Of a stretch of DNA of 37,399 nt, positions 936 through 37,399 are shown one piece after another. Under the pieces are notes generated by a model. That model was not told where the DNA came from and searched no databases. It saw only the letters and a list, made by a program, of their open reading frames with translations. The stretch is from positions 1-37,399 of the forward strand of contig CADBFN010000020.1 of NCBI GenBank assembly GCA_902794035.1. Reading direction: 5' to 3'. The position numbers and the translations under genes are program-made. Positions within the stretch are counted from its first letter, which is position 1. Each line of letters starts with the position of its first letter. The stretch comes from an uncultured bacterium. Its GTDB lineage: Bacteria > Cyanobacteriota > Vampirovibrionia > Gastranaerophilales > Gastranaerophilaceae.

Positions 936-1235
936 ATGTATAGAAGAATAGTAGTACCAAAGATTTTAGAACCAAAAACAGTAAAAACTATAACAAAACC
1001 TAAGACCTGCTTAATACAGGATAAAGTTAATAACGTACAACCCCAAAAATTAACATTTGCCGTAGCAGCCGGCAGTGTACCGCCACCGGGAGGCAATGGT
1101 CCGGAAAACATTTCCCCGTTTAATAAAAAATTTACTAAAGAGTTTATAAAAAAGATAAGTCAAATGACCAAAGACATAAATAATTTTACCCGCAATGGTT
1201 TTGATATCTTTAAGAATCATAATCACATAAAATAA
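936..1235 (+). CDS. Short Gly/Pro-containing protein of unknown function
   Basis: The frame is open from an ATG at 903, but a strong GGAGG at 924-928 lies seven bases before the in-frame ATG at 936. The 99-residue product starting MYRRIVVPK is therefore preferred. It has a basic N-terminal part, a low-complexity AVAAGSVPPPGGNGPENISP segment in the middle and a helical basic C-terminus. There is no signal peptide or known domain that I recognise. The good ribosome site and the terminator right behind it argue that it is a real gene. Confidence 0.6.
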   Translation: MYRRIVVPKILEPKTVKTITKPKTCLIQDKVNNVQPQKLTFAVAAGSVPPPGGNGPENISPFNKKFTKEFIKKISQMTKDINNFTRNGFDIFKNHNHIK

Positions 1236-4996: not shown

Positions 4997-6247
4997 GTGA
5001 ATAAAAAATGTTTCACTCTGGCAGAGTTAATGATAACCATAGGTGTAGTTGGCGTAGTTGCGGCAATAACTATTCCTTTATTAATACAGAATTCAAATTA
5101 CAAAAAATTTACCACTCAATTTAGAAAATCCTTATCTACCTTAAATCAGGCGGCAATCTCTGCTCAGGCTCAGTATGATATGGATTATGGAATGATAACT
5201 TCAGAAAGCACCCCTTCAACCTGCGCAACAGATTCTCTGTCAGGCGGACAATCGACAATGTGCGCATTATTAAATAATACATTAGCAGGTAAAACATATA
5301 TGGGTGTATATGGTGAAGTAGCAGGCTCAATGATTTTGACAAAATATCAGTTTACGAAAAAGACAGATGGTTTTGATCCTGCAAACTTTTTAATCTATTC
5401 AATGGCAGACGGTTCAATCGTAGGTTTTAATCCGAGTATGAAAAATTGTTCATTGAGCGGTGAATTAACAAAATCAGTATTAACAGACTCAAATAAACTT
5501 GCAAATTGTATCGGATTTATAGATGTAAACGGAGTGAGCCTGCCAAATAAAGAAGTCACTTGCTCAGACGGTACAAGTGCATTAGAGCCAAATAATCCAT
5601 GTACATTGAAATCAAGCGGCTTTGGATTGGGGGATGTATTTCCTGTAGTCTTTCATAACGGCACAGTAGAACCCGCCACCAACGCCGCAAAAGCCTTTTT
5701 TTCAGGAGAGTCATCCGTCAGTGCAGGAGATAGTAATATAATAGGTTATACATCTTCAGGTGATCCTATATATTCAAAGCCTGATACTAATTCTTCAGCA
5801 ACTTCATCGAATACAGATTTGGGTGTAATTAGCTCAAGTTATAATCCTAATCTAGATTCAAGTGATGTAAAAATTGTTAGCGGTGTAAAATATCAAAAAG
5901 ATACAATTTCGGGCTTCTATTATTCATTAAACTCAAATGGTGCGGTGGATACAACATCTCTCATGGATTCAGAAGGGAATATATATAAAAGTTTTCAAAA
6001 TCGTTCAGGTGCATATATTTATGTAAAAGATGGTGATAAGGCTGAAGTAGATGGAGGAGGACATACATTCTTTAGTGGAAATAGCGAAATTGTAGTTGTG
6101 TATGATAATGAACATTATAAGCTTAAGACAAGCTCTAGTGGTCAATCAGCTAATTCAGACATAAGTCCTCGTACGGGTTGTCAAATTCAATATTCATGGG
6201 GTCCATATTACATTTATTGCAACGGCAAATACACGAGTAGCCTGTAG
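4997..6247 (+). CDS. Large pseudopilin-like protein with prepilin N-terminal methylation motif
   Basis: The start is a GTG five bases after AAGGGG (4986-4991). The leader MNKKC is followed by FTLAELMITIGVVGVVAAIT, a type IV prepilin/type II pseudopilin signal with the conserved Glu at +5 and a hydrophobic helix. It is exported and probably processed by a prepilin peptidase before Phe6, although the residue before the cut is Cys rather than the usual Gly. The 416-residue length is large for a pilin. The remainder is a Ser/Thr/Asn/Gly-rich extracellular domain with several Cys, including two near the C-terminus (TGCQIQYSWGPYYIYC) that could form a disulfide. Such oversized pseudopilins are numerous in gut Melainabacteria. 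Its 3' flank is shared, inverted, with the gene at the right window edge. Confidence 0.85.
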   Translation: MNKKCFTLAELMITIGVVGVVAAITIPLLIQNSNYKKFTTQFRKSLSTLNQAAISAQAQYDMDYGMITSESTPSTCATDSLSGGQSTMCALLNNTLAGKTYMGVYGEVAGSMILTKYQFTKKTDGFDPANFLIYSMADGSIVGFNPSMKNCSLSGELTKSVLTDSNKLANCIGFIDVNGVSLPNKEVTCSDGTSALEPNNPCTLKSSGFGLGDVFPVVFHNGTVEPATNAAKAFFSGESSVSAGDSNIIGYTSSGDPIYSKPDTNSSATSSNTDLGVISSSYNPNLDSSDVKIVSGVKYQKDTISGFYYSLNSNGAVDTTSLMDSEGNIYKSFQNRSGAYIYVKDGDKAEVDGGGHTFFSGNSEIVVVYDNEHYKLKTSSSGQSANSDISPRTGCQIQYSWGPYYIYCNGKYTSSL

Positions 6248-7432: not shown

Positions 7433-8825
7433 AAACCGAATAAAAAACGATAAAATCCTGAATAATCTCGCAAGTTTTTTTGATAATGATATCTGGCTTG
7501 TGGGCGGTGCAGTGCGTGATATTTTGCTTGATAAAGAAATTTTGGACAGGGATTTAATAGTTACAGATTGTGATGCAAAAGAGCTTTCTTTAAAAATTGC
7601 GGATTTTTTAGGCGGAACTTTTGTTCCGCTTGATGAAGAAAACAAAATTTACAGAATAGTTTTAGAGGATAAAAAAAATTATCTTGATATAACAAATCCG
7701 ACAGAAAATTCTTTGGAAAAAGACATTTACCGCAGAGATTTGAGAGTAAATGCAATAGCGGTAAATATTAAAACAGGCGAAATTTTTGACCCGACAGAGG
7801 GGTTAAAAGATTTTGAAAACAAAGTTTTAAACGGAATAAGAGAAGAAAATTTCACAGATGACCCATTGAGATTACTGCGCATTTTCAGATTTCATTCAAC
7901 TTTGGGGTTTGAAATTTCTGATGACTTAACAGATATTGCAAAAAAACATGCAGTACTTATAAATAAACCTGCAAAAGAGCGTATTGAATACGAACTTATG
8001 AAACTTTTTGGTGGTAAATATTCTGATAGTGCGCTTTTAAAAATGGATGAGTGCAACATTTTGGAATTGATTTTTCCTTTTGTAAAGGAATTAAAACAAG
8101 TTCCGCCAAATGCGCATCATCATCTGGATTTATTTCATCATAGCATTGAAACAGTCAGACAGATTGAACTTTTATATTCTCAAAGTCAGCCTGAAGTCAA
8201 AGAGCATCTTGATAAAGTTGATTTTGGCGGATTTTCAAGACTTGCCCACTTAAAATTATCTGCATTCATGCACGATATCGGCAAGTTTTCAACATGGTTT
8301 ATTGAGGAAGATACAGGTCGTCACAGGTTTTACAAGCATGATGATGTCGGTTCAAAAATGGCACCTGAAATTTTGAAAAAACTTATGTTTTCAAATAAAC
8401 AGATAAAATATGTTCAAAAAATGATTAAAAATCACATGTACGCGACCATGGTTGTTTGCTCACCGGAATTGTCAGACAAAATTATGATGCGTTATGTGCG
8501 CAAGATGGAAGATGATGCGATAGATGCCATAATGATAGGCAAAGCAGACAGACTGTCTGCTTTAGGACCGGAAATCACAGAAGATATGGTTAATGAAAAC
8601 CTTACCATGCTTGATAAACTTTTGAAATTCTATCTTGACAGCCTTGAAACACTCAAACCGCTGCCAAAACTACTAGACGGCAACGAAATTATGGAAATTT
8701 TGAATATTAAACCATCTCCACAGTTAGGCAAAATTTTAAACGAACTGCACGAAGCACAATTAAACGGGGATATTACAACAAAAGAAGAAGCAATTGATTT
8801 TATAACAAAATTAAACCAAAGATAA
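7413..8825 (+). CDS. cca: CCA tRNA nucleotidyltransferase with HD domain
   Basis: Class II nucleotidyltransferase of the poly(A) polymerase/CCA-adding family. The head domain shows LVGGAVRDILLDKEILDRDL (GG motif and catalytic Asp pair) and RRDLRVNAIAV. The neck has DPLRLLRIFRF and KPAKERIEYELMKLF. The C-terminal part carries an HD phosphohydrolase domain (HHHLDLFHHS, FMHDIGKFSTW). The frame is open from a TTG at 7398, but the ATG at 7413 has a GGAA at suitable distance and is preferred, giving 470 residues. It completes or repairs tRNA 3' ends, fitting the CAU tRNA here that lacks an encoded CCA. It overlaps rsmE upstream (likely co-transcribed) and the convergent TPR gene by 15 bases. Confidence 0.92.
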   Translation: MNTQITKNRIKNDKILNNLASFFDNDIWLVGGAVRDILLDKEILDRDLIVTDCDAKELSLKIADFLGGTFVPLDEENKIYRIVLEDKKNYLDITNPTENSLEKDIYRRDLRVNAIAVNIKTGEIFDPTEGLKDFENKVLNGIREENFTDDPLRLLRIFRFHSTLGFEISDDLTDIAKKHAVLINKPAKERIEYELMKLFGGKYSDSALLKMDECNILELIFPFVKELKQVPPNAHHHLDLFHHSIETVRQIELLYSQSQPEVKEHLDKVDFGGFSRLAHLKLSAFMHDIGKFSTWFIEEDTGRHRFYKHDDVGSKMAPEILKKLMFSNKQIKYVQKMIKNHMYATMVVCSPELSDKIMMRYVRKMEDDAIDAIMIGKADRLSALGPEITEDMVNENLTMLDKLLKFYLDSLETLKPLPKLLDGNEIMEILNIKPSPQLGKILNELHEAQLNGDITTKEEAIDFITKLNQR

Positions 8826-9533
8826 TTTTGTTGAAGTCGTTTTAATTTTCCGAAGTTTTTCTATGCGTTTAACGACAAAATCTGCATTTGAATCTTCAGG
8901 ACTATATTCAAGAAACTTATGATAATATCTTTTTGCTTCTCTCTGCTTGCCTAATTTATCCAGACATATCGCAATATCATAGTATCCTTGCGAATAATTA
9001 GGATTAATCTTTAAAACCTGTTTGTACAAATCCAATGCAGAATTATAAAGCTCCATTTTCATTAATAGCGTAGATTTTCTTAAATATGCATTTAGATAAG
9101 TAGGTGTATTTTCAATTAGTTTTTGATAAATCATCATAGCCATATCCTGCTCATCACACTGTTCATGCGCCAATCCAAGCTGATAAATAGCATCTGCATT
9201 ATCAGGTTCAAGTTCAATCGCACGAATAAAACATTTTATAGCTTTGCAAGGGATTTCATCTTCAAGGTGACACATACCCAATTCATAGAATGTTTCAAAA
9301 TTGTCTTTATCTAATAACGCAGACTTTTCCAATGCAGAAATTGCTTTTTTGATTTTGCCTAAATGTTTATAACAAACACCTAAATTTAAATATGTATCAG
9401 GATTATTTCGGTCTAACAAAATAGAATTGAGATAAAAACCAATCGCTTCTTTAAAAGAATTTTTTGATTTTAACTTATCCGCTTTGTTCTGCATATCATT
9501 TTTTTTAGCCTGAACTCTAAACGGTACACTCAT
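8811..9533 (-). CDS. Tetratricopeptide repeat protein
   Basis: About five tandem TPR units fill the protein (for example PDTYLNLGVCYKHLGKIKKA and ADAIYQLGLAHEQCDEQDMA), each a 34-residue helix pair with the usual small and aromatic residues. TPR solenoids mediate protein-protein contacts; no enzymatic domain or signal peptide is attached. The frame extends upstream to a TTG at 9641, but the ATG at 9533 begins just before the repeat region and is chosen, giving 240 residues. Neither start has a good Shine-Dalgarno. It overlaps the convergent cca gene by 15 bases with no terminator between them. The partner is unknown. Confidence 0.8.
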   Translation of the reverse strand: MSVPFRVQAKKNDMQNKADKLKSKNSFKEAIGFYLNSILLDRNNPDTYLNLGVCYKHLGKIKKAISALEKSALLDKDNFETFYELGMCHLEDEIPCKAIKCFIRAIELEPDNADAIYQLGLAHEQCDEQDMAMMIYQKLIENTPTYLNAYLRKSTLLMKMELYNSALDLYKQVLKINPNYSQGYYDIAICLDKLGKQREAKRYYHKFLEYSPEDSNADFVVKRIEKLRKIKTTSTKLSLV

Positions 9534-9680: not shown

Positions 9681-10511
9681 ATGAAAAAGATTGCAGTTTT
9701 ATTAGGGATAGCATGTATCTTCTCACCTTTGTCTGCCGCATTTGCAGATGATTCCGTACAATTGCGCGGAGTGGAGAAACAAAAAATAGAATTACCAAAA
9801 CAAGACTATAAAAAAACAGAAAGTCTTGTTCTAACAGATGATGAAGTAATGGGACAAATTGTAAAACTTCAGCGTGAAAAAGATTTAGAAGATATTGATA
9901 ATTTGTGGAAAGGCACTGTTTCAAATAATCAGGTAATAGGTTTTGCTCTGAAAAAACTTGCCACTCCTGAGAGCCAGCGCAGAATACACTCATCACTTAT
10001 GGCAAAAACTTTATCAGCAATAATTTCAGGGGCTTCAATGGCTCCAATGCTTTTAGGGCAAAATTATATGATTCAGTCTGGGGCTTACGGAGCAGGCAGA
10101 ATTGCACAAAATTTATTAAACAGAAAGAATATTCCAAAAGAAATTCCTTTAACTGATACAGAGCTCATAGAACTTGCAGGATTGGTAGAAAATCTGCAGG
10201 ATAAAATTATTGCAGCGTATTACAACTACAAGAGCAGCTTAGAAATGCTCAAAGAAATACGTTCAAGAGAACTTTTATATAACAAGAATTATGCTAAGGC
10301 AATGGATGAAGAAGATTTTCTTGAAATCGCAATCCAATCAACTCTATATCAGGATATACAATTAGAAGAAGAAAAATACGTTCAGCTTTGTAAAAAATAT
10401 CACTTAGAATTGCAAAGACTTGCAGGTAAAAAAGTTGTAGATAATCTTAATTTATACCAATATGACTATGATTCTGCACTTTTAGGAAACGGAGGAAAGA
10501 ATGAAAAATAA
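9681..10511 (+). CDS. Exported helical protein, paralogue of the next gene
   Basis: A signal peptide (MKKIAVLLGIACIFSPLSAAFA, cut before DD) is followed by about 250 residues of mostly helical, charged sequence. A central hydrophobic Gly/Ala/Met stretch (about residues 110-150, ASMAPMLLGQNYMIQSGAYG) could associate with membrane. LWKGTVSNNQVIGFALKKLA and LAGLVENLQDKIIAAYYNYK have clear counterparts in the downstream protein, so the two arose by tandem duplication. I do not recognise the family. A TATAAA at 9669-9674 sits six bases before the ATG with no Shine-Dalgarno, so a leaderless start is possible. The 3' end overlaps the next gene by 11 bases, implying one operon. Confidence 0.75.
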   Translation: MKKIAVLLGIACIFSPLSAAFADDSVQLRGVEKQKIELPKQDYKKTESLVLTDDEVMGQIVKLQREKDLEDIDNLWKGTVSNNQVIGFALKKLATPESQRRIHSSLMAKTLSAIISGASMAPMLLGQNYMIQSGAYGAGRIAQNLLNRKNIPKEIPLTDTELIELAGLVENLQDKIIAAYYNYKSSLEMLKEIRSRELLYNKNYAKAMDEEDFLEIAIQSTLYQDIQLEEEKYVQLCKKYHLELQRLAGKKVVDNLNLYQYDYDSALLGNGGKNEK

Positions 10512-12030
10512 ATTATTACTACTTTCAGCAGTAATGTTAATAAGCGGGATTTGTACAGCAAACGCAAATTTAGCACTAACAGATATAAATGCACCAAAAT
10601 CCCCTGCATACCGAGTCGGAATTTCAGAAATACCTGAACGTCCTTATGTACAAACCGTTTCAGAAAAAGATGCAACCATCAAACAAGCTATTCAGAAACA
10701 AACTAATCATACAGAAAATGATGTTACTTCATACGGGGATTTAAGCATAAAAAAAATATCACAAGAAATATCTTATGATTTAGAATGCGAAGAACAAGAG
10801 ATGGTATCAGATTTGTCACTTTTGTGGCAGGGTGCAGCAATGCAGAGTGATACGATAAATTTTGCACTATATAAACTTGCAAATCCGGATGCTGATAAGC
10901 CTAATAAAAGTACAGTAAAAAATATGCTTAAAACAGTTGCAAGTATGTCCACACTTGTTGGGGCAGGAATGGCAAATCCTTTACTAGCCGGCACATCTTT
11001 AATCGGAGCTAATGTACTTGGAATAATGACTCAGGATACTAAAGCATTGAATTATAAATACTCAAAAGTTACAGATGCAGATATGATAATACTTATCCGC
11101 AAAGTTGAAGACCTCCAGCAAAAAACTGTAGATTTGTACTACGACTATATGACGGCTAAAAAGCAATTTGATATAACCACGAAATTAGCACAAGAAAGAA
11201 AAAATCGTTTTGAACAAGCACAAAAAAATAACGCTGCAAGAGAAATTATAGTAATAACAGATTCACATTTCAGAACCGCAATGGACAAACAAAAAACAGC
11301 CCGTTCCGTATTCTTATCAAAAAGGGCAGCTTTAGAACAATTTGTCGGGAATGAAGCATTCAATCAATTTGAGCAAGAACTAATCCAAAGAGAAAATTCA
11401 TTAAACGGTGCATCGTCAGAAGTAAAAGAAGAATATACCAAAACAGTATCAGGAGTTGAAAATTACACAAATAATTTATCAAGCAAAACCGCAAGTTTAT
11501 CAGGTATAGGATATATTGAGGAAGAAGAAGATAAGAACCTTTCTAAATTAGACGAAATAAAAGCTCTTACACCTGAAGCTCCTGCAGAACCGGAAGTACA
11601 AGTTCCGCAGGAAGCCCAGCCTGAGCAATCCGAACAAAAAACAAATACATTAAAAGATAAAATAAAAACTGCAAAAAATAAAATAAAAAAAGATAATAAA
11701 AAAGAAAAAACGAAAGAAGAAAAACCTAAAAAAGTAAAAAGAGATCCTTATGACACTAAAGGTTTTATATTTCTTCATGACAAACAGCCTGATGCTTCAA
11801 ATTATCAGGATACAACAAATAACGTAAAAGAGACTACGCAAAAAACTAAAAAACAAAAAGACAAAAAATCTAAGGAAATATCACAAAAACCTGAAAACAC
11901 AAAAGCAGGAGAAATCAAATCAGCTGAGGTGCAAAAAACAAATAAATATCACGGAGTAGAGCTTATGCCGCTTGATGATATAAAAGCACCGGATTTAAAA
12001 CCACACGGATATTCAATTTTTGAAAAATAA
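10501..12030 (+). CDS. Exported helical protein with Lys/Glu-rich tail, paralogue of the preceding gene
   Basis: A signal peptide (MKNKLLLLSAVMLISGICTANA) leads a domain homologous to the upstream protein (LWQGAAMQSDTINFALYKLA, IRKVEDLQQKTVDLYYDYM). This one carries an extra C-terminal half. That half is a Pro/Glu segment (EAPAEPEVQVPQEAQPEQ) followed by a very Lys-rich low-complexity stretch, ending in a more ordered tail (GVELMPLDDIKAPDLKPHGY). The domain is helical with a hydrophobic middle (LVGAGMANPLLAGTSLIGAN). The ATG is five bases after GGAGG (10491-10495). The function is unknown. The duplicated domain plus a basic linker suggests a periplasmic or envelope-spanning scaffold, which is inference. 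lipM follows six bases downstream. Confidence 0.75.
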   Translation: MKNKLLLLSAVMLISGICTANANLALTDINAPKSPAYRVGISEIPERPYVQTVSEKDATIKQAIQKQTNHTENDVTSYGDLSIKKISQEISYDLECEEQEMVSDLSLLWQGAAMQSDTINFALYKLANPDADKPNKSTVKNMLKTVASMSTLVGAGMANPLLAGTSLIGANVLGIMTQDTKALNYKYSKVTDADMIILIRKVEDLQQKTVDLYYDYMTAKKQFDITTKLAQERKNRFEQAQKNNAAREIIVITDSHFRTAMDKQKTARSVFLSKRAALEQFVGNEAFNQFEQELIQRENSLNGASSEVKEEYTKTVSGVENYTNNLSSKTASLSGIGYIEEEEDKNLSKLDEIKALTPEAPAEPEVQVPQEAQPEQSEQKTNTLKDKIKTAKNKIKKDNKKEKTKEEKPKKVKRDPYDTKGFIFLHDKQPDASNYQDTTNNVKETTQKTKKQKDKKSKEISQKPENTKAGEIKSAEVQKTNKYHGVELMPLDDIKAPDLKPHGYSIFEK

Positions 12031-22579: not shown

Positions 22580-23584
22580 TTACTCATCTTCAAGCTTATA
22601 TTGTATAGTACAAGAATGTTTATTTATTCTGATACACATTTCTACAATATATTGATTATTCATTTTTAACTCTACAATTGTTTTTGAATATATGTCTTGT
22701 GCTATTAAAATATTTTCATCAATGCGTTTAAGTTTAAGGTATATTTTGTTTGGTTTTTTATGCCAATCATTACATCTTATTATAAAATCATAGATTATTT
22801 TTCTATTATCTAGTATATGCTTTTGCAAAATATTTAAGGTATTAAGTTGTCTCATAGCAATTTGAACATCTTTTGAAGAATCCCCACTAGAGGCAATTCC
22901 CATATTGGGTGAAAAGCAGTATTCTCCATCTATATTTAGTATTGTTGTAATTCCTGTTTCCCTTAATTCTCTATACTCACAATCACTAAATTCTTTTTCA
23001 ATACTAAGAATACCGTTTAGTTTGTGGACATTATATTGTTCTATCCAGTTGTCCCTTAATATAGTAAGTAGTTTCCTGCAAGCAAAACTACTTTTACTGT
23101 GATTGAGTATTTGTATCAGATACACATCTGTTGGGGTTATACGGCAAAATAAAACATCTTTTGTTCTTGTGCAAAATTTTGCATTTTTTTCTAACTTACC
23201 TAAATGTAGGTGATATAAATCCCAATCGTTTAATAAATAGTCCTTCGGACAATTTTGCTTAAAGATATGTTTTACATCTTTATTTAAAAATGGTCTGATT
23301 GTATTGCCTTGTTCAAAATTACTAATAATATTTTCTATGCTATTTTGATATATTTTATATAATTTATTATCCTTTAATTCTTTTGACAAATGAACTTTAC
23401 GGGGATTTGCAGGAGGAATTCTTTTTGAATCTGATAAATATTTAAAATATAAATCATGTGGTTTTAATTCTTTTAAATATGAATAATTTTTATTGTTTAA
23501 ATCGATATTAAAATATTTTTGTATAGATAACAATACAAATTGTTTATAATCTTCCTCAAAATTTGCATCAATATTAATCCCCAT
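22580..23584 (-). CDS. Unrecognised cargo protein with a DWDLYHLHLG motif
   Basis: A 334-residue, very AT-rich, Lys/Asn/Ile-rich cytosolic protein between attL and the integrase, the usual cargo slot of tRNA-integrated islands. A central block NDWDLYHLHLGK (119-130), followed by RTKDVLFCRITPTDVYLIQI and LLTILRDNWIEQY, reads like a compact alpha/beta domain with conserved His. I associate this pattern with uncharacterised proteins on genomic islands of other bacteria, but cannot name a family. The second half is a distinct beta-rich region. Because small element-encoded proteins in this slot are often phage-defence or toxin genes, such a role is plausible and unproven. No good Shine-Dalgarno is visible. 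Confidence 0.6.
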   Translation of the reverse strand: MGINIDANFEEDYKQFVLLSIQKYFNIDLNNKNYSYLKELKPHDLYFKYLSDSKRIPPANPRKVHLSKELKDNKLYKIYQNSIENIISNFEQGNTIRPFLNKDVKHIFKQNCPKDYLLNDWDLYHLHLGKLEKNAKFCTRTKDVLFCRITPTDVYLIQILNHSKSSFACRKLLTILRDNWIEQYNVHKLNGILSIEKEFSDCEYRELRETGITTILNIDGEYCFSPNMGIASSGDSSKDVQIAMRQLNTLNILQKHILDNRKIIYDFIIRCNDWHKKPNKIYLKLKRIDENILIAQDIYSKTIVELKMNNQYIVEMCIRINKHSCTIQYKLEDE

Positions 23585-23756
23585 AATTGTTATTTTATCA
23601 CAAGCGAACTTATGAATAATAACGAAAGTTTTATAATTTTTATGAATTTAATAACTTATACCAAAGAGGTAGCTCACGCAATTAATAGCGGATTTTAATT
23701 ATTCAAAATGATGAAGAATACTAACCACAGCATTAAAATTCATTGTATCGTGTGAC

Positions 23757-23774
23757 AGCGGGGACAGGTTGAAT
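23757..23774 (+). repeat. 18-bp repeat shared with 32498-32515
   Basis: AGCGGGGACAGGTTGAAT is present exactly in both places, in the same orientation, at opposite ends of the element's gene block. It is GC-rich for this region. At the second site it forms one arm of a longer imperfect inverted repeat. Confidence 0.7.
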
Positions 23775-23777
23775 GTT

Positions 23778-24941
23778 TTATCCAGCCTGTTTACTTTGAT
23801 TTTTTTCCATAGTAGGACCGAATATTAGGTTATCCATTGCATTATTTGCATCAATTGGTAGTTCACTTAGTATTTGAGTATATGAGTTTACAGTTACTTT
23901 TGGGCTACTGTGCCCAACTTGCCCTGAAATATATACTATCGGGACTTTACACAAGTGCATAATATCAACATATTGCCCTCTTAGATCCTGAACTCGGCAA
24001 AAATTTTCTTCATAACCACATAATGTAAGTAATTTAGTAAATCTCCGTTCAATCCATTTGGCATACATTAAACCGCCCTGTTCAGGTTTGAACATAAAGT
24101 CGGTATGATTTATACCAAAATATTTGATATGCCATTGGATAATATCATATACCTTATTTGATATATCAACGATTCTTGTGGAAGTTACTGTTTTAGTCCT
24201 TGCCTAGTATTCATTCCGAGTAATCTGCTTGTCTACGTATATTACATACCTATTATCTTTTCTTTTTATGTCACAAGGTCTAATTGCAGAATATTCTCCT
24301 AATCGCATACCTGTCAAGGTTGCAATACAAAATATACAATAAAACTCAGGCATCGCTTCGATGCATGTATCAATTACTTCTTTTAACTCTTTTGTTGAAA
24401 AACGATTTCTTAACTTTTTGGGAATAGAAACAGGCTTTAATTCACTAAAAGGATTTGTGCTGATTTGTTTTAATTCAATGGCATAATTGAATGCCCGTTT
24501 TAAGAGCTTTAAGCATCCATTATACACATGATCACTTACACCTTTTTTATATAAATTCCTGTGCCATGTTTGGATAAAAGCAGGTGTAAGTTTTTTTATC
24601 GGAATTGATATTAAATCTTGCATATGGTTTTTAAAATAACCTTCGTAATTTTTTATTGTACCTTTTTCATATTTTCCTTCGTTTTTTATGAAATCAAAGA
24701 AAAAGTTTATAACATCCCTAAAAATAATATCTCCTTTTAATTCAACTTTACCACCTTCTAATGAATTTAAAAATTTTCTTTCAGCTTCTTTGGCTTCTTT
24801 TTCAGTATTAAAACCTCTCACTCTGACTTGTTTTCTTTTCTGTTTACCGAATTTATCATATTCTCCTGATGGCACATCAACAACAAACCACCATTTGAAC
24901 TTCGTTTTTTCTATATTTGTATAATATTTTCCGACTGTCAT
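23778..24941 (-). pseudogene. Tyrosine integrase split by an in-frame TAG
   Basis: A site-specific recombinase that would catalyse integration and excision at tRNA-Glu. Reading from 24941, an AP2-like arm-binding domain comes first (WWFVVDVPSGEYDKF). A SAM-like core-binding domain follows (about 70-165), then the catalytic domain with Arg in TLTGMRLGEYSAI. The frame meets TAG at 24204-24206 after ITRNEY, then continues in the same phase (ARTKTVTSTRIVDISNKVYD) to the rest of the domain, QDLRGQYVDIMHL and GQVGHSSPKVTVNSYTQI with the nucleophilic Tyr. Total 387 codons, a normal length. The second box reads QDLRGQ rather than the common HDLRHT, a weakening of two active-site positions. The split, and this change, suggest loss of function unless TAG is read through. 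Confidence 0.88.
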
Positions 24942-25039
24942 ATTCTATACCTTTTTTATCTTTATTAAGTATCTCTTTAAGACTCTATCGGAGCCCGATC
25001 AAAATCTCAAGTACATATTTTTATTTTTCCAATACCTTA

Positions 25040-25210
25040 CTATGAACTAGTAATCAGTTTTCTTTTAAACTTGTATTCTTCTGTCAATGCTTCTTTTATA
25101 CTGATAAATCCTGAGCGTTTAAAACGTTTCGTATTACCATTATCTAATCTTACACTTACGGTATAATAAAATTTTCTGCCATTCTTAGTCTGATATTTAT
25201 AGACTGCCAT
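25040..25210 (-). CDS. 56-residue stand-alone integrase arm-binding (AP2-like) domain
   Basis: The translation MAVYKYQTKNGRKFYYTVSV, then RLDNGNTKRFKRSGFISIKE and ALTEEYKFKRKL, has the three-stranded sheet plus helix pattern of the Arm DNA-binding domain at the N-terminus of phage integrases. Here it ends at TAG after ITSS without any catalytic part. It overlaps the HTH gene upstream by 14 bases, so both are probably co-translated. It could compete for or co-occupy arm sites, or be the remnant of an older integrase. It is short but well formed. Confidence 0.6.
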   Translation of the reverse strand: MAVYKYQTKNGRKFYYTVSVRLDNGNTKRFKRSGFISIKEALTEEYKFKRKLITSS

Positions 25211-25484
25211 GATGATTTTCCTTTTCTATTTTTTGTTTCTGTACATAATTAAATTGTGCCTGCGCACTAACAGGTTTTGGCGCAATGTAACATCGCCTTT
25301 TATAATTTAAAATATCTTCTTTTATCCAAACGGTCTTACATCCATAATTAATTGAGCCTATAGACAATTCATTATGTAGGATTTTTCTTGCCGTATGATA
25401 TTTAAGCCCTAATATATCGGATGCTTGTTTAAGAGTAACCGTTTCTTTTTCTGCTATATCTATGCTAGTGTTATATTCTACCAT
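25197..25484 (-). CDS. Excisionase-like HTH protein
   Basis: A 95-residue protein whose core (VTLKQASDILGLKYHTARKI, then TVWIKEDILNYKRR) is a MerR/Xis-type winged helix of the HTH_17 class. The C-terminus is basic and polar. In small elements, such proteins control recombination direction or act as regulators. GGAG lies upstream of the ATG (minus strand AAAAGGAGAATAAAAA). It is read together with the arm-domain ORF toward the integrase. Confidence 0.8.
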   Translation of the reverse strand: MVEYNTSIDIAEKETVTLKQASDILGLKYHTARKILHNELSIGSINYGCKTVWIKEDILNYKRRCYIAPKPVSAQAQFNYVQKQKIEKENHHGSL

Positions 25485-25531
25485 TTTTTATTCTCCTTTT
25501 ATTTTTTACTGATACGATTTTTTTATGCAAC

Positions 25532-25608
25532 ATATGCAAAATACATGTAAAGTACACATATATTTTTTTTCTAAAAAAGTTTACATGTATAATGCACTTT
25601 TTGCATAT
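25532..25608. promoter_or_regulatory. Inverted-repeat region between helicase and excisionase genes
   Basis: ATATGCAAAATACATGTAAA (25532-25551) recurs inverted as TTTACATGTA (25580-25589) plus TTTTGCATAT (25599-25608), separated by an 8-base insert. ACATGT and ATGCA words recur in between. The only gap in this gene block is here, so it may be the operator for the excisionase operon or a replication origin recognised by the helicase. Confidence 0.5.
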
Positions 25609-25610
25609 CT

Positions 25611-26825
25611 TTAAAAGATTTCATTTTTATAAACCAAATTTTTCAACATATTTCTGATTCCACCTACTGTTGCAGTAACCCCCCTATTTCTCAATAAAGA
25701 ATTAAAAGTTTGTTTATTTTCAGCACAAATACCTTGAACATTACACCAATGACAATATAAATTATATGCTTCTTGTAATTTTGTACTTTTTTCTGATTCA
25801 ACAAAATTATCATTAAGAAAAGCTCTTATGATATCACAACTTTCCCAAAACTCCTGATTTGCTTTTATAACACATTCAGGCGGTTGTAGACCTTCTTTTC
25901 TGTACAGGCTCAAACCGTCAATACACCAATGTAGGATTTCACTAAGTATTTCAGGATCAAGAAGTTTTTTCTTAAGATTCTTATCTTGTTCCTTTTCTGT
26001 AAAATGCCTATCAAATGTAATAACATTAACCCTTTTGCTTGCAAATAATGTATCATCATTTACTTGTGGTAAATGATTCGTTGTCATGAATATCTTAAAA
26101 TTTGGTTTAAATTGAAATTCATTCTGATATAATTCTCTTGCTGTTATTGTATCTCCACCTGTATAAGCTTTCATTTTTGCTGTATCAAGAATCATATTTT
26201 GTGGTAATTCGATAGTATTAACAAATCTTACTCCTCGTAATCTTGCGATATCCCCACTTGCAGATCGGCTATCAGAGAATTTTTTTATTGCAAATGTTTC
26301 TGGTGCAGATTGTTTGGCATAATCTCCTAACATATATAAAAAAGTCTCAGCATATGTGCTTTTCCCGTTTCTTGTCGATGGTCCATATAATATAAAAAAT
26401 GTTTCCTCTTTTGTAGATGCAGTTAAACAGTACCCCATTACTTTTTGTAGATATTTTATTTTTTCAATATTACCTTCAAAAATTTGTTCAAGAAACTTTT
26501 CAAAAATATTTGTTGATATATTATAAGAATGTTTTACATTAGCAATAAGACTAAGCATGTCTTCTGCCTTATGATTTCTAAATTGCAATGTTTTTAGGTC
26601 TAATGTCCCGTCTTGCAAATTTAGTAAATCCGTATTTTTATCTAATACGTCATTATATATTGGAAACTCGCTGGTAGCATCTTTAACAATAGCATCTCTT
26701 TTGTCCTTTGAACCAAGTTTTACAAGAAATTTTCTATAATTTTCAATTGAAGTCATTCGTTGTGTTTCAATATTGATATCATTAAAGAGATTGTCTTCCA
26801 ATGAGTACATAAGTAGGGCATTCAA
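25611..26825 (-). CDS. SF3 helicase domain of a phage/plasmid D5-P4-type primase, N-terminally short
   Basis: Superfamily 3 DNA helicases unwind origins of phages and satellites. A D5_N-like region (about 50-135) precedes the AAA core with Walker A GPSTRNGKST (148-157), Walker B-like VRFVNTIELP and the sensor IFMTTNHLPQV. The winged-helix C-terminus (NSLLRNRGVTATVGG) is also present. At 404 residues it lacks the primase domain expected in the 600-800-residue two-domain forms. The start is uncertain: the frame opens with TTG at 26825 and an ATG lies five codons in at 26810, neither with a clear ribosome site. Either a helicase-only gene or one truncated at its 5' end. Confidence 0.85.
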   Translation of the reverse strand: MNALLMYSLEDNLFNDINIETQRMTSIENYRKFLVKLGSKDKRDAIVKDATSEFPIYNDVLDKNTDLLNLQDGTLDLKTLQFRNHKAEDMLSLIANVKHSYNISTNIFEKFLEQIFEGNIEKIKYLQKVMGYCLTASTKEETFFILYGPSTRNGKSTYAETFLYMLGDYAKQSAPETFAIKKFSDSRSASGDIARLRGVRFVNTIELPQNMILDTAKMKAYTGGDTITARELYQNEFQFKPNFKIFMTTNHLPQVNDDTLFASKRVNVITFDRHFTEKEQDKNLKKKLLDPEILSEILHWCIDGLSLYRKEGLQPPECVIKANQEFWESCDIIRAFLNDNFVESEKSTKLQEAYNLYCHWCNVQGICAENKQTFNSLLRNRGVTATVGGIRNMLKNLVYKNEIF

Positions 26826-36989: not shown

Positions 36990-37088
36990 AAAGAAAAGCC
37001 CGAGGGGATTTAGTTGGATAAAGATCCCTCGGGTTCATGTTAAAAGTCAATAATAAGTCTTTTTTATTTTCCCTTTCTTTTGCTCCCT
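36990..37088 (-). repeat. 99-bp module, inverted copy of 6342-6439, with terminator
   Basis: Reverse complement of the module behind the pseudopilin at 4997-6247, with one extra base in an A-run. It contains the same CCCGAGGG/CCCTCGGG terminator, here for the minus-strand gene ending at 37094. Copies are 30.6 kb apart in opposite orientation. Confidence 0.9.
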
Positions 37089-37093
37089 CTACC

Positions 37094-37399
37094 CTACTTC
37101 AGATCACCCACACAAACGGCCCTGAAGCTCGAACCGTAGCGGCGGCTGAGGTTGTACCTGCCCGAGCCCGAACTGTTGAAGTCCCGGCCGTACGCGCCGT
37201 AGGCGCTGCCCTCACGGCCTGACCACAAGTAGTACCAGGAGGAGCCTAAGCCTGAAAAGCTCTCAGGTAATTTGCTGAAATCTGGTGTGCCTGAGCAGTT
37301 TTTTGAACTGTCATCGCAGTTTGGATAGATAGTTTTAGATAATTCGTATAAATCATCCTCTGTTGGAAGGTTTTGTACTCCACCACACTTTTCTGCTGC
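37094..37399 (-). CDS. 3' end of a DUF1566/lectin-like-fold surface protein with a DGR-type variable region (partial)
   Basis: The 5' part lies beyond the window; 101 residues are visible. The block NLPTEDDLYELSKTIYPNC resembles the LPTxxELYEL motif of DUF1566/Lcl-type and FGE-like C-terminal domains carried by the pseudopilin-like proteins of this lineage. After SSWYYLWSG the codon use changes sharply. From codon 61 to 94 of the visible part, 23 of 34 codons end in C (AGC, GCC, TAC, GGC, GAC, TTC, AAC), while the preceding 55 codons are AT-biased like the rest of the genome. The protein ends RRYGSSFRAVCVGDLK, similar to the conserved ends after a variable region. This is the expected footprint of AAC-to-NNC adenine mutagenesis by a diversity-generating retroelement. 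No template repeat or reverse transcriptase is in the window. Confidence 0.6.
   Translation of the reverse strand, partial: AAEKCGGVQNLPTEDDLYELSKTIYPNCDDSSKNCSGTPDFSKLPESFSGLGSSWYYLWSGREGSAYGAYGRDFNSSGSGRYNLSRRYGSSFRAVCVGDLK

Follow-up and report, generated by a model that had tools for sequence, protein, structure and literature searches.

Diversity-generating retroelements (DGRs) in which one template repeat (TR) serves scattered target genes are already known, and it is well supported that the system described here is notable among them for its size and its targets. It was traced from the right edge of contig CADBFN010000020.1 in the assembly (GCA_902794035.1) of an uncultured bacterium of the Gastranaerophilaceae; this contig, 37,399 nucleotides long and analysed in full, is called the window below. 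The block at its edge is almost certainly the C-terminal variable repeat (VR) of one member of a dispersed prepilin-like family that is diversified by a single DGR. The parts of such a system can be read in the genome sequence: a TR, VRs with adenine-limited differences, a reverse transcriptase (RT), an Avd protein and, in an assembled paralogue, a prepilin start.

The TvpA-type DGR of Treponema denticola, in the accessible part of its description, uses a single TR and a single RT for two to seven targets, several of which lie far from the core (PMC4891356). As in our genome, differences fall mostly at TR adenines, some targets bear 'excessive mutations', and one VR is nearer to another TR type. 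Several of the T. denticola targets are predicted lipoproteins, however, whereas the assembled target here is prepilin-like and the VRs number 13. The DGR of Bordetella phage BPP-1 likewise shows adenine changes from TR to VR and possesses an Avd (PMC3240598, in part), but is a phage system, in contrast to the many VRs found here and to viral contigs that hold no relative of the target or of the window open reading frame (ORF) and a single RT relative, at 36% identity. An origin from phage was considered and rejected, as it finds no support in that viral contig collection. The Bacteroides DGRs that act on tip pilins resemble our system in belonging to gut bacteria and in their pilus-type targets, but concern type V pili in another lineage, whereas the start found here is that of a type IV prepilin (review PMC12632263, in part). 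Cyanobacterial DGRs have dispersed C-type-lectin paralogues, with variable proteins scattered away from the DGR as in the present genome, but in the accessible sections these are tied to signalling and regulation (PMC7517822); neither 'pilin' nor 'Melainabacter' occurs in the main text of that paper. Larger target numbers per DGR, and putative pilin structures among DUF1566 targets, are reported in the accessible part of PMC6642488. The literature searched (mostly without subscription papers, and without preprints) contained no paper on DGRs in Melainabacteria and no prepilin set of 13 VRs with one template in this lineage.

The variable repeat and its template

The assembly (G000) comprises 47 contigs and 1,785,283 bases, with a completeness rating of 94.5%, and the window is the whole of its contig C20. 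Three features mark the right edge:

37094-37399, minus strand: 3' end of the DGR target gene, 101 codons and the stop, in an ORF open at the right contig edge
37103-37245, minus strand: VR of 143 bp (the 140 bp of the template plus one codon), matching the TR at G000:C18:1215-1354
37103-37133, minus strand: 3' end of the VR, candidate homing-initiation (IMH) segment

The VR ends two codons ahead of the stop of its gene, i.e. near the 3' end of the ORF. Its last segment differs little between copies in an alignment of the TR with 13 VRs and, by analogy, may serve the initiation of homing. The 5' part of the gene is unassembled because the contig end cuts it; a prepilin stalk would be expected there. 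Among the 36 contig ends compared, none overlaps the window's end exactly.

A first-pass annotation, made from the letters of the window, had proposed a probable DGR variable region at 37100-37250, pointing to an excess of C-ending codons and to a GC content far above that of the surroundings. Both observations hold: codons end in C in 28 of 50 cases within the block and in 13 of 50 in the remainder of the ORF, and GC reaches 0.633 at 37100-37249 against a window mean of 0.327. That value is attained by 0 of the 36,950 windows of 150 bp starting at 1-36,950, the maximum among starts 1-36,800 being 0.533. The annotation had further derived the NNC codons from an AAC-rich template, and such a template exists. 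A search of the bacterium's own genome with the window block found, among many related places, the TR on C18, which lies in no ORF longer than 71 aa and has AAC in 13 of its 46 codons, a count reached by 0 of 5000 shuffles. The window VR differs from this TR at 20 of 39 adenines and at 0 of 101 other sites (Fisher p = 8e-14), which bears out the proposed region, and the assembly also contains the RT and the Avd that the annotation had proposed to look for in the genome.

With the TR as query, the same genome gave 16 matches at E<=1, namely the TR itself, 13 VRs and 2 weak ones, and every VR matched at E 5.1e-13 or better. The annotation was accordingly right about the window VR, but had described as a single variable region what is one of 13, and the link with prepilins had escaped it. 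No second TR was found in the assembly by this search. The VRs sit on 12 contigs, and for 12 of the 13 the nearest contig end is no more than 1 kb away. Differences from the TR in the other twelve, at adenines and at other sites, are:

C18: adenine 21/39, other 1/101
C21: adenine 11/39, other 2/101
C38: adenine 16/39, other 1/101
C39: adenine 14/39, other 5/101
C22: adenine 15/39, other 0/101
C9: adenine 19/39, other 2/101
C11: adenine 18/39, other 5/101
C29: adenine 19/39, other 5/101
C6b: adenine 19/39, other 6/101
C41: adenine 16/39, other 3/98
C19: adenine 20/39, other 16/101
C6a: adenine 19/39, other 22/101

In the pooled test, from which C19 and C6a were omitted, eleven VRs differ at 188 of 429 adenines and at 30 of 1108 other sites (p 1e-86). 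When codon positions 1 and 2 are taken alone, the counts are 188 of 418 and 19 of 592, and since the bias persists there, selection on codon position is no explanation for it. These figures bear on the alternative that paralogous lectin-type genes diverged without a DGR, through ordinary duplication, gene conversion and diversifying selection, for which the large stalk family of these proteins (37 matches, query included) and the upstream sequence common to copies could be cited. The clustering of differences at the adenines of one non-ORF template, at codon positions 1-2 as well, together with a DGR-like RT and an Avd in the genome, makes this alternative hardly credible; ordinary gene conversion in particular was rejected, being contradicted by the adenine bias. 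The TR is rich in AAC, and nearly all its adenines occupy first or second codon positions, so that changes of residue would largely avoid stop codons.

The substituted adenines of the eleven VRs became G in 102 cases, T in 44 and C in 42, and an excess of G is reported for a reconstituted DGR (PMC12875486, in part). One extra codon is present at the AAC run in the VRs of the window (a 3-nt insertion relative to the TR), C22 and C19, as in one VR of the sister species G021, and C41 has one codon fewer nearby. Such changes in AAC-run length are not new, since an earlier proposal has AAC repeats slipping in steps of three (PMC12875486, in part). On visual inspection, a terminator-like stretch occurs in nearly identical form after the window gene (~36995-37045, minus strand) and upstream of the TR (L023 ~970-1015, plus strand).

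Reverse transcriptase, Avd and locus layout

The remaining parts of the system, and the layout in the related genome G263 (locus L093), are located as follows:

C30:707-1855, minus strand: RT, 382-aa ORF, the genome's only RVT_1 match
L023:1436-1783 (C18): Avd, bAvd family, starting 81 bp after the TR
L093 of G263: RT 8001-9125, VR 10208-10344, TR 10798-10937, Avd 11053-11385

The RT matches RVT_1 with 61 bits, over the cut-off, and among solved structures is closest to PDB 8ub7 (E 1.5e-34; the next match has 1.4e-9), which we take to be the BPP-1 enzyme and which adds a further likeness to that system. In place of the motif QGxxxSP that the first-pass annotation had expected, a form belonging to other bacterial RTs, the protein carries IGNLTSQ, which we regard as the DGR-type motif, and also YVDD. 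By RVT_1, the 8ub7 match and IGNLTSQ, the C30 RT appears DGR-like. The Avd scores 55.9 bits against bAvd (cut-off 40) and matches phrog_3206, the PHROG 'Avd protein of DGR', at E 1.7e-25; among solved structures its best match has E 0.064. Avd is common among DGRs, though not universal. An Rfam scan of L023 and L075 gave no match.

Contig C18 holds a target, the TR and the Avd, and its left end overlaps that of C30 by 22 bp. In the comparison of contig ends, nine pairs overlap by at least 12 bp, and C30-C18 is the sole pair for those two ends. If C30 is joined to C18 through this overlap, the order becomes RT, prepilin target, TR and Avd. The same order is found in G263, where RT, a prepilin-like target with its VR, TR and Avd are contiguous; the G263 RT match spans one TGA, and its open frame has 376 aa.

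The target proteins

Two genes, one a target and one not, serve to characterise the family:

L025:2165-3445: C6b paralogue, prepilin-like, the only fully assembled target in this genome
4997-6247 of the window, plus strand: pilin-like paralogue that has the same stalk but no VR, absent from the TR matches and not a DGR target

The start of the C6b protein matches TIGR02532 with 19.2 bits, over the cut-off of 16.3, and PF07963 with 20.8 bits, under the cut-off of 21.2. The C29 gene has an exact 97-bp end overlap with a contig end that carries a prepilin start (C13), and the C19 and C6a genes have 40-bp overlaps to two candidate prepilin-start contig ends each (C24, C30). N_methyl matches in the genome number 33 at E<=0.1, of which 31 are over the cut-off. 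The protein of 4997-6247 is 86% identical at residues 54-285 to the stalk of the C29 VR gene and differs from it at the C-terminus, so that the two genes present one stalk with exchangeable ends. Elsewhere in the window, at 22580-26825, ORFs resemble by eye a tyrosine integrase and a phage/plasmid-type primase, probably an integrated element unrelated to the VR.

The one secretin and two T2SSF proteins encoded in the genome count in favour of the main reading. It is nevertheless conceivable, though rather unlikely, that the varied proteins remain in the envelope as pseudopilin-like proteins and are not displayed on a filament, given that a prepilin start is also typical of type II secretion pseudopilins, that weak matches to both kinds occur, and that these are long proteins of about 400 aa.

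For the varied domain, the first-pass annotation had named an FGE/DUF1566 fold, which finds weak support in the 10 sequences of this genus that were scanned: FGE-sulfatase matches one (E 6e-4) and Lcl_C, presumably the former DUF1566, matches two (best E 0.035), neither model matching the window ORF. Among the targets of relatives, three of five match Lcl_C at E 1e-6 to 2e-5, below the curated cut-off. These weak Pfam matches suggest that the varied domain is probably of the FGE/C-type-lectin type. Run as a profile against solved structures, the variable domain gave three matches, the best at E 0.12, which are not meaningful.

We infer the following course of events. The TR on C18 would be transcribed, and the C30 RT together with the C18 Avd would copy it into cDNA with its adenines misread. 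At the 3' end of a target gene, the homologous VR would then be exchanged for this cDNA. One set of TR, RT and Avd may suffice for 11 to 13 VRs spread over 12 contigs, its parts on different contigs acting jointly, and in trans except at the VR beside the TR. The system would still be active at present, and the varied domain may form the exposed tip of a stalk resembling a type IV pilin, displayed on a filament, where it would bind ligands as an adhesin or sensor.

Possible template turnover, and relatives

Several observations weigh against the reading that one DGR diversifies a prepilin-like family. The RT (C30) and the TR with its Avd (C18) lie on separate contigs, and the 22-bp overlap between these falls in a repeated gene family. 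The C30 protein is not named a DGR RT by any of the family models: in NCBIfam its best match is a group II RT/maturase, below the cut-off, and PADLOC and PHROGs label it simply as RT; the Avd reaches 62.7 bits with the NCBIfam model DivGenRetAVD (DGR-Avd), below the cut-off of 80. The prepilin-peptidase match is likewise below its cut-off. The predicted structures are poor and unusable (pLDDT 36 for a full target, A1, and 53 for its C-terminal part, A3), which leaves the lectin fold without structural support. As assembled, the C18 target beside the TR (L023:2-590) shifts frame ahead of its VR, and C19 and C6a, with their 16/101 and 22/101 non-adenine differences, may lie outside the reach of this TR. 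Finally, in 12 of the 13 cases the 100 bp that follow the VR hold no phage-type hairpin (perfect stem of at least 7 bp, loops of 3-8), in contrast to BPP-1, whose VR is followed by a GC-rich hairpin. In the accessible part of PMC3240598 such a hairpin is shown for phage DGRs and predicted for most bacterial ones; it is not a strict defining feature of a DGR. The C39 target (L026:2-700) is shortened in frame near the site of the C18 frame change, and either a real deletion or an assembly fault may lie behind these two changes.

The many non-adenine changes in C19 and C6a and the out-of-frame C18 target could also indicate that the DGR was formerly active and is now dead, with the VRs as frozen relics. 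This is improbable, however, in view of the open frames of RT and Avd, the absence of any non-adenine difference (0/101) in the VRs of the window and of C22, and the state of the TR in the sister species. G021 possesses a TR, an Avd and two VRs, and its TR differs from that of G000 at 0 of 39 adenines and at 9 of 101 other sites. Its VRs differ from their own TR at 15 of 42 adenines and 1 of 98 other sites, and at 16 of 42 and 4 of 95, respectively.

The preferred reading of a working, template-driven DGR predicts that VRs are overwritten independently of the DNA beside them. Upstream sequence was compared for 9 of the 11 VRs, C9 and C11 being left out for too little upstream DNA. The 150 bp just upstream of C29 and C6b are 42-60% identical to other VR loci and to each other, and yet the non-adenine VR sites of both agree with other VRs at 91-96%, as overwriting from a template predicts. 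C6a shows the reverse, being 93% identical to C22 upstream and only 78% at non-adenine VR sites. In addition, the VRs of C19 (L030) and C6a (L024) have five non-adenine bases in common (columns 42, 52, 77, 86 and 104) that are absent from the other 11 and may point to a second template or an older one. That a second TR, lost or unassembled, fed C19 and C6a is possible if somewhat doubtful: these peculiar bases, the C6a contrast and the incomplete assembly (94.5%) speak for it, but only one TR was found, and drift from a shared ancestral VR would give the same common bases.

The 30 non-adenine differences in the eleven VRs are informative in the same respect. Twelve of them fall at the 9 sites that separate the TRs of G000 and G021, where 2.7 are expected, and 11 of these 12 are compatible with a G021-like template (the same base, or an adenine there). 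C19 and C6a together show a small excess at these sites (5/38, with 3.4 expected). It is as if some VRs had been written from an older version of the template, though part of the G021-like match could come from shared VR ancestry.

RT matches at E<=1e-10 occur in 8 of the 46 genomes of the genus, several of them weak, and at E<=1e-40 in 45 of 383 genomes sampled from the family, in 14 of 41 genera. Among the 20 RT loci scanned, an adenine-biased pair was found in 6, one (L105) not being counted; in the other 14 the stretch fetched held no adenine-biased pair, which is uninformative either way. Six further DGRs were recognised in relatives (G263, G318, G243, G142, G283 and G005), that of G005 differing at 18 of 45 adenines and 2 of 79 other sites. 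The targets of all six match N_methyl at E <=0.005, three of them over the cut-off. Two of these genomes, G318 and G243, share a genus and carry near-identical targets, so that the independent cases are fewer than six. The pair at L105 (G065; 7639-7851/9778-9990) was not counted because its adenine bias lies on the strand that does not encode the 466-aa target, a protein that looks prepilin-like by eye. In G025 a partial RT match (C90:14451-15104) contains 2 in-frame stops, and two tested VRs (L078, L080), when set against the TRs of the two other species, show 19-22 non-adenine differences; from this comparison we can but guess that the DGR may have decayed.

For the lineage as a whole we tentatively suggest, at somewhat less than even odds, that its DGRs are specialised for prepilin-like filament proteins, that one template diversifies at least 13 scattered tips in trans, and that a drifting template leaves behind cohorts of VRs written from older versions.

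What began as a GC-rich oddity at a contig edge has turned out to belong to a complete hypermutation system of an uncultured bacterium. With 13 VRs and one template, a single genome provides an internal set of replicates in which the rules of DGRs can be addressed, among them adenine context, the excess of G, length changes in AAC runs and template turnover. The contig ends within 1 kb of nearly all VRs are also a warning that such gene families fragment assemblies. The link with prepilins yields a clear prediction of what these bacteria vary on their surface, and if the drifting-template reading is true, the cell would gain both a standing repertoire and an ongoing renewal of filament binding.
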